A program made the position numbers and the translations under genes. DNA of 32,986 nucleotides from Desulfotomaculaceae bacterium (GTDB lineage: Bacteria > Bacillota > Desulfotomaculia > Desulfotomaculales > Pelotomaculaceae), in NCBI GenBank assembly GCA_028702435.1, contig JAQVOX010000004.1, positions 1 through 32,986 on the forward strand, given 5' to 3'. Below are positions 5,384 through 7,127 of this stretch, in pieces; position 1 is the stretch's first letter, and the number at the start of each line of letters is the position of its first letter. The notes under the pieces are model-generated. The model saw only the letters and a list, made by a program, of their open reading frames with translations. It was not told the DNA's origin and ran no database searches.

Positions 5384-5412
5384 ATGTTAACAAATAATCA
5401 ATGCCTTGTCAA
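5384..5412 (-). promoter_or_regulatory. Strong sigma-A promoter of the tRNA-His/tRNA-Gln unit
   Basis: On the minus strand a perfect -35 TTGACA (5412-5407), a 17-nt spacer and -10 TAACAT (5389-5384) lie about 45 nt upstream of tRNA-His. Confidence 0.8.
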
Positions 5413-5490: not shown

Positions 5491-5519
5491 TTGATAATTT
5501 TTAGTGGTACGGATATAAT
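5491..5519 (+). promoter_or_regulatory. Strong sigma-A promoter of a short structured RNA
   Basis: TTGATA (5491-5496), a 17-nt spacer and a perfect TATAAT (5514-5519). Predicted transcription start is near 5526. It is divergent from the tRNA promoter, and the transcript meets a strong terminator only about 120 nt later. Confidence 0.8.
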
Positions 5520-5525
5520 TGAAAA

Positions 5526-5647
5526 AGTAATATTAGTAACCACCAAGTGCTGGTAATTATTGAAGTAGGCTGGCGCGACGGGCTTTAAAACCCACCGGCA
5601 ACAAGGACAATAATTGGCGCCAGGGCTATTGCAAGCCTTGGTTTTTT
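5526..5647 (+). ncRNA. Candidate structured small RNA or attenuating leader upstream of tig
   Basis: About 120 nt lie between a strong promoter and an intrinsic terminator, with no coding frame. Helices I can draw: AATTATTG (5555-5562) with CAATAATT (5608-5615), closing a domain that holds GCTGG (5569-5573) with CCGGC (5595-5599) and GGG (5580-5582) with CCC (5591-5593). A competing helix is possible: CTGGCGC (5570-5576) with GCGCCAG (5617-5623), which would use bases of the terminator's left arm (5620-5627). That arrangement resembles a riboswitch expression platform. I compared it by eye with the conserved cores of common riboswitches, T-boxes, 6S, SRP RNA and tmRNA and found no match. It could be a free sRNA, or a leader controlling tig, which starts 163 nt beyond the terminator. 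Confidence 0.55.
5620..5647 (+). terminator. Intrinsic terminator of the structured RNA
   Basis: CCAGGGCT (5620-5627) pairs with AGCCTTGG (5634-5641), with one G-T pair, around ATTGCA, followed directly by six T residues (5642-5647). Confidence 0.85.
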
Positions 5648-5655
5648 AATATATT

Positions 5656-5685
5656 TTGAAGGAAATAGTATTGTTTTTGTAGAAT
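5656..5685 (+). promoter_or_regulatory. Possible promoter of tig
   Basis: TTGAAG (5656-5661), an 18-nt spacer and TAGAAT (5680-5685) lie just after the terminator. If real, tig has its own promoter and the upstream RNA is an independent gene; if not, tig depends on read-through. Confidence 0.4.
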
Positions 5686-5810
5686 AGCTTTTTAAAATGG
5701 TTAAGATATGTTATATGGTTTTTTATAGCAGTTGGATCAAGAGGAGAGGGTGTGACTTTTCTAAAATAGCAACTATCTAATCTAATCAAACTATTTAAGG
5801 AGGAGCATAT

Positions 5811-7127
5811 ATGAAAGCTAACGCGGAAAGGATAGAAAAAAACACTGTTCTCCTTGAAGTTGAGGTGGACTCGGAGCTATTCTCACAGGCTGTTGATAAA
5901 GCCTACCGCAAAATTGTACGTAACATAAATATCCCGGGTTTTCGCAAGGGTAAAACCCCGCGTGTGATCCTTGAGCGTTATATCGGCAAGGAAGCTATTT
6001 ACGAAGAAGCGATGGAAGCGCTGGTGCCCGAAGCCTACATAGAGGCGGTAAAGGATACCGGTATTGAACCTATTGACAAGCCGGAGGTCGAAATTATTCA
6101 GGTTGAAGAAGGTAAGCCGGTAGTTTTTAAAGCTACCGTTCAAGTAAAACCAGAAATAGAGTTAGGTCAGTATAAAGGACTGGAAGTAGTAAAGCCGGTC
6201 ATTAATGTTACCGAAGAAGATGTACAGAAAGAACTGGATCGTTTACAAAACAGTCATGCCAAGTTGCTGACTTTAGAAGAAGGCATGGTTGAAAACGGTG
6301 ATATTGCCGTTATAGATTTTCTAGGGAAAATTGACGGCGAGCCTTTTAAGGGGGGAGAGGGCAAAGAATATTCCCTGGAGATCGGCTCAGGTTCTTTTGT
6401 CGGAGGATTTGAAGATCAGGTTATTGGCATGTCTATTGGCGAGACCAGGGATATACAGGTAACTTTCCCTGAAAACTATCAGGCGGAGGAATTGGCCGGT
6501 AAAGACGTTGTCTTTACCGTCACAGTTAGCGGAATTAAAAGGAAAGAGCTGAGTCCGCTGGATGACGAGTTTGCCAAGGATGTCAGTGAGTTTGATACCT
6601 TAGAGGAATTAAAGAATGATCTCACGAATAAATTAGAAGTAAACGCAGAGAACAGATCAAAATTTACACTTAGAAGTGAACTTCTCAATAAGGTTGTTGA
6701 CCAGTCTGCGGCTGAGATTCCCGATAGTATGATTGAGCAGCAAATTGGAGAAATGATTGCCAACATGGGCAACAGCTTTGCCAATCAAGGTCTCTCTATT
6801 GATGATTACCTCAAGTATACTAATTCATCTATGGAAAAAATGAGGGAGAATTTCCGGCCGGAGGCAGAGCAAAACATAAAAACTGCTCTGGTAATGGAGT
6901 CAATCGCCAAAACGGAAGAAATTAAACCGTCTGAAGAGGATATACAGGCGGAAATAGAGCGAGTTGCTTCGCTATACCGTCAAGATCCAGGAGAATTCCG
7001 TAATATGCTTGAAAATGAAGGCAACCTCAGTTACATTACTGAGAATTTAGTCAAGGAAAAAACATTACAGTTTTTGGTAGATAACGCTAAAATAATTGAG
7101 GGCACCAACAATCAGAGTGTAGAATAG
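5811..7127 (+). CDS. tig: Trigger factor, ribosome-bound chaperone and prolyl isomerase
   Basis: Binds near the ribosomal exit tunnel and folds nascent chains. At 438 aa it has the usual length. Domains seen: an N-terminal ribosome-docking domain with the signature GFRKGK at residues 43-48, an FKBP-type isomerase domain from about 160 to 240 ([26 protein letters not shown]), and a long helical C-terminal domain rich in Glu, Lys and Asn that forms the chaperone arms. The start ATG follows a perfect AAGGAGG at 6-7 nt. It opens the tig-clpP-clpX-lonB-usp-lon-engB run, a frequent order in Firmicutes that couples folding with degradation. clpP starts 61 nt after its stop with no terminator between, so they are probably cotranscribed. 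Confidence 0.97.

Follow-up and report, generated by a model that had tools for sequence, protein, structure and literature searches.

The tig locus and its upstream region

The window, as we call the whole stretch of DNA analysed here (32,986 nucleotides), carries the trigger factor gene tig (5811..7127, + strand; Pfam domains Trigger_N, FKBP_C and Trigger_C) as the first gene of a tig-clpP-clpX-lon group, and since clpP, clpX and a gene for a Lon-type protease follow it, the segment studied does lie just before a trigger factor/ClpXP operon, as an earlier note on this DNA had stated. Upstream of the segment, typA and the genes for tRNA-Gln and tRNA-His are on the opposite strand, and a promoter-like sequence on the − strand (TTGACA-17-TAACAT, 5384-5412) would serve the divergent tRNA-His/tRNA-Gln genes.

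The segment itself begins with a promoter on the + strand, P1 (TTGATA-17-TATAAT, 5491..5519), which matches the consensus at 11 of 12 positions with a spacer of 17, in agreement with the strong sigma-A promoter described in the note. The body of its leader, counted from the predicted start site, occupies 5526..5618 (+ strand), is poorly conserved and has no conserved fold. It is followed by an intrinsic terminator (5620..5647, + strand) composed of CCAGGGCT, the loop ATTGCA, AGCCTTGG and then TTTTTT; a promoter and terminator scan of the window returned a terminator-like stem-loop at 5619-5642 with the T-tract attached, and the note had been right about this as well. No frame of at least 30 amino acids was found on the + strand of the transcript, which bears out the reading of the RNA as non-coding. 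The RNA of about 120 nt is best explained as the terminated product of P1.

Two further candidate promoters lie on the + strand between the terminator and tig. From its sequence, P2 (GAAGGAAAT-12-GTAGAATAG, 5658..5687) reads as a sigma-H-like promoter, and the corresponding motif, AGGAAAT-N11-15-GTAGAA, recurs at tig in families f1, f3, f5, f8, f10, f14, f16 and f18 (f1 being the window's own) against a null of 0.05-0.25%; it is present just upstream of tig in all nine f8 loci. The sigma-H consensus of Bacillus is RnAGGAwWW and RnnGAATww, and the motif fits it. Further downstream, TAAGAT (5702..5707; GGTTACAAT in most relatives), conserved by eye, is possibly the -10 element of a third promoter, P3. 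The 5' UTR of tig contains a second well-conserved f1 block (GGAGAGGGTGTGACTTTTCTA...AGCAACTATCTAAT, 5745-5800) between P3 and the ribosome-binding site.

Promoter and terminator are conserved within the family

The f1 relatives were gathered by a DNA search of 60 relatives, together with the tig upstream regions from genomes of the family. Of the 22 f1 loci that could be used, 21 carried the promoter-terminator unit before tig, with 81-114 nt between the -10 element and the hairpin, and P1 was found in every one of the 21 complete loci that have the hairpin. The complete 3.03-Mb genome G012 (locus L031) has kept P1 and lost both the leader body and the hairpin, so that P1 leads there straight to P2 and tig.

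Among genus representatives of f1, identity was 100% for the -10 element of P1, 87% for its -35 element and 95% for the left arm of the terminator, GCCAGGGCT, which is better conserved than its pairing partner. The 5' part of the body was only about 24% identical, and the 33 nt before the hairpin 41%. This pattern, with conserved promoter hexamers and terminator arm around a variable body, is the reverse of what one would expect from an aptamer. In the genus of the window and in the neighbouring one, the U-tract is an uninterrupted T6, which makes a strong terminator.

The leader body has no conserved fold

The earlier note had described the segment as a structured RNA with two long-range helices. 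Both are indeed present in the window and fully paired: all pairs form in the closing helix AATTATTG (5555-5562)/CAATAATT (5608-5615), and all 7 in CTGGCGC (5570-5576)/GCGCCAG (5617-5623). Neither survives in the relatives. When the window was compared with five of them, the sixth sequence being less surely aligned, the closing helix kept 8, 8, 7, 3, 4 and 4 of its 8 pairs, and the second helix 7, 4, 5, 6, 6 and 3 of 7. The minimum-energy fold of the transcript contains neither helix. The 122-nt transcript as a whole (folding z = -0.35) and the part 5' of the terminator (z = 0.03) fold no better than their shuffles, so the description as a structured RNA was not borne out, and no common fold was found in the leader bodies of 21 relatives. 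Set against the tig upstream regions of its relatives, the segment keeps its promoter-terminator unit and not its helices.

Searches of Rfam at gathering and relaxed thresholds gave nothing relevant, the best sub-threshold matches being far under the cut-off; the segment thus belongs to no Rfam family, just as no known class had been recognised by eye. Nor did the identity pattern, the helix pairs or the common-fold test reveal a conserved, covarying aptamer.

The sole conserved motif of the body is AACCC (5589..5593, + strand), RAGCCC in relatives, which sits 28-32 nt 5' of the hairpin in 21 f1 sequences. It is complementary to the GGGCT of the terminator left arm, and the two could pair in most members of the family. 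An RAGCCC-GGGCT antiterminator is nevertheless doubtful: although the position is constant, the complementarity did not exceed that of shuffles in most f1 sequences, and the partners of RAGCCC in predicted nascent folds differ from one sequence to another. The short leaders of the other families could not accommodate such a competing structure. No conserved antiterminator helix was found in the relatives.

The same pair precedes tig in other families of the class

We extended the comparison to 17 other families, which supplied 80 further tig genes whose upstream regions were long enough to use, accepting automatically a promoter with at least 8 of 12 consensus positions and a hairpin 17-40 nt after the start of the -10 element. 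The pair was detected at 31 of these 80 loci, in eight families: f2, f5 (one locus), f6, f7 (three loci), f11 (9/9), f15, f16 (10/16) and f17 (5/7). Dinucleotide shuffles gave it in 0.2%. By eye it is also present in f3, with CATACT as the -10 element, and at the remaining f7 loci. The order of elements at tig in the class is promoter, hairpin, P2/P3, tig. Where detected, the hairpin begins 17-28 nt after the start of the -10 element, which corresponds to transcript positions of about +5 to +16 and leaves no room for an aptamer. The hairpin is absent in f8, f9, f10, f12, f13, f14, f18 and most of f5, and is thus missing from about half of the families of the class.

The stem reads CCAGGG/CCCTGG in f1, f2, f3, f6, f7, f11, f15 and f17, the exceptions being f16, where it is GCCGG/CCGGC, and the single f5 locus, which also differs. 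Around this constant stem the loop measures between about 4 and 11 nt. Such variation suits a hairpin formed in RNA, and it is too great for a DNA operator palindrome, which was rejected on this ground. A stem sequence held fixed while the loop is free may reflect slow drift, contact with a polymerase factor or recognition by a specific factor. Outside genera g1 and g2 other bases break up the U-tracts (TATTTT, TATTTATTTT), a feature to be expected where terminators leak, and these sequences suggest leakiness in most lineages. In f11 (L078, L082, L088, L224-L228 and L259) a conserved block, CTGGAAAAAATTRCCCTTTTTGGCTG, lies 3' of the terminator, and its ACCC-UUUU-UGGC could, by sequence, pair with the GCCAGGGU of the hairpin.

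The pair has remained at tig while the neighbouring genes changed. The tRNA His-Gln-Lys-Leu cluster is divergent from tig in f1 and co-directional with it in f3, the upstream neighbour is a divergent TrmI-like gene in f7 and a co-directional AAA+ regulator in f14, and the promoter-hairpin unit follows the direction of tig in every context that has it. Since the tRNA genes of f1 run away from the hairpin, it is not their terminator. The CCAGGG-loop-CCYTGGTWTTTT pattern occurs in 0-4 copies per genome and none of the checked copies away from tig, inside or outside the class, has a tig gene nearby, which led us to reject a repeated mobile unit. Among the pattern matches checked, no CCAGGG hairpin was found at tig outside the class. 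A scan of named genomes yielded mostly Bacilli and Clostridia from outside the class. In some Clostridia outside the class (L178, Alkaliphilus; L134; L151) the region upstream of tig also has a promoter and, after it, a terminator-like hairpin of unrelated sequence, so early terminators ahead of tig may be more general.

Discussion

From a promoter and a hairpin conserved together across the class and tied to tig, with neither a conserved aptamer nor switch helices between them, the reading that we consider on balance probable is that P1 serves tig-clpP-clpX-lon and that the promoter-proximal intrinsic terminator acts as an attenuator. P1 would be the strong housekeeping promoter of the operon. 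The terminator would stop most of its transcripts early, after about 120 nt here and about 36-45 nt in the other families, and a fraction of the polymerases would pass it and enter the operon, which P2 and P3, 3' of the terminator, would also feed. With leaders that leave no space for a sensor, general inputs would be likeliest, such as hairpin stability with temperature or NusA/NusG-type factors, or else a factor reading the conserved stem. That the pair is kept before tig in about half of the families suggests that this operon for protein quality control carries a simple brake of its own.

The arrangement is that of an attenuator, with promoter and terminator both upstream of tig, co-directional with it and kept there despite the changes of neighbours. 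Four observations speak against it: the clean T6 of the window's genus and the next; the lack of a conserved antiterminator helix, the RAGCCC/GGGCT complementarity not exceeding that of shuffles; the presence of P2 and P3, which could supply tig without P1; and the absence of the hairpin from about half of the families. Regulation linked to the terminator, which the earlier note had also proposed, thus stays plausible, and it is the riboswitch form of the idea that finds no support.

The segment could instead be an independent sRNA gene whose RNA, 120 nt here and about 40 nt elsewhere, base-pairs in trans. This is possible, though we favour it less than the attenuator. Its own strong promoter and terminator, the absence of a frame and the single copy near tig would all suit such a gene, as would a left arm (GCCAGGGCT) that outdoes its pairing partner in conservation and a C-rich RAGCCC at a constant place in f1. 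However, the body is nearly unconserved between genera, and in the other families the RNA barely exceeds the terminator hairpin, and its loop and 5' end vary. No conserved unpaired seed was found, only the promoter and the terminator arms being conserved, with RAGCCC as the one motif of the body. The unit also always stays at tig though its neighbours change.

About as tentative is the possibility that the hairpin is a partial terminator, passive and unregulated, which fixes how much P1 contributes to tig expression or shields P2/P3 from P1. Leaders too short for a sensor, two more promoters downstream and the loss of the hairpin in several families and in G012 are all in keeping with it. The stem of such a terminator should drift, yet CCAGGG has been kept in eight families (f1, f2, f3, f6, f7, f11, f15 and f17) while its surroundings diverged.

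A more specific form of the attenuator, and an improbable one, is a class-wide minimal device without a sensor leader, whose termination signal begins at about +5 to +16 and whose CCAGGG/CCCTGG stem would be read by a trans-acting or polymerase-bound factor; when protein folding is under stress, this factor would admit polymerase to the trigger factor-ClpXP-Lon operon.

The weakest reading, which takes up the riboswitch-like switch of the earlier note, is a metabolite riboswitch with its aptamer in 5526-5619 and the terminator as expression platform, which is very unlikely: the window sequence does allow alternative helices with the terminator directly 3' of them, but there is no Rfam match, folding z is near 0, the helices are not kept, the body is conserved less than any other part and has no common fold in 21 relatives, and the orthologues with short leaders have no space for an aptamer.

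Two other candidates were rejected. A leader peptide finds no frame of at least 30 amino acids in the window transcript, and the short leaders elsewhere are too small for one; the Leu-rich mini-frames of genera g5 and g6 shift frame between sister species, as do the frames that follow small start codons in relatives. The segment is not 6S RNA either, since it has no RF00013 match and the 6S RNA lies elsewhere in the genome (G000:C99). A 6S RNA scored over the cut-off in 24 of 25 f1 genomes, and G002, from the window's genus, has two such matches (G002:C165 and G002:C164).

If read-through is regulated, the attenuator would be a very compact control that acts, throughout a class of anaerobes, on a central operon of chaperone and protease genes, and it would offer a test case of how attenuation can work without a leader sensor. 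Even if the terminator is passive, the locus shows how an apparent riboswitch dissolves when relatives are compared, the promoter and terminator being conserved and the body not.

Comparison with known systems

We found no described tig leader element for these bacteria in searches of open-access papers, and trigger factor is absent from the main text of two large surveys of novel structured RNAs. With 6S RNA (RF00013) the unit shares an abundant-type promoter, a non-coding transcript and a terminator, but the genome has its own 6S RNA at another place. It resembles the trans-acting sRNAs of Firmicutes as a stand-alone promoter-terminator unit without a frame, and differs from them in being tied to tig and in having no conserved seed outside the terminator. 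Riboswitches with a terminator expression platform also place a terminator beside alternative helices, as seen in the window, whose RNA has no conserved aptamer or alternative helix.

The closest relatives are the terminator-based transcription attenuators, in which a leader contains a premature terminator and which have been surveyed before (PMC2965389); neither trigger factor nor these genera appear in the text of that survey. As in those systems, an intrinsic terminator stands between a promoter and the first gene of an operon, here with a class-wide link to that gene. Unlike them, the tig unit lacks an aptamer, a leader peptide, a T-box and any known protein site, its hairpin starts only about 5-16 nt after the predicted start in most families, and the sequence of its stem is conserved whereas that of its loop is not.
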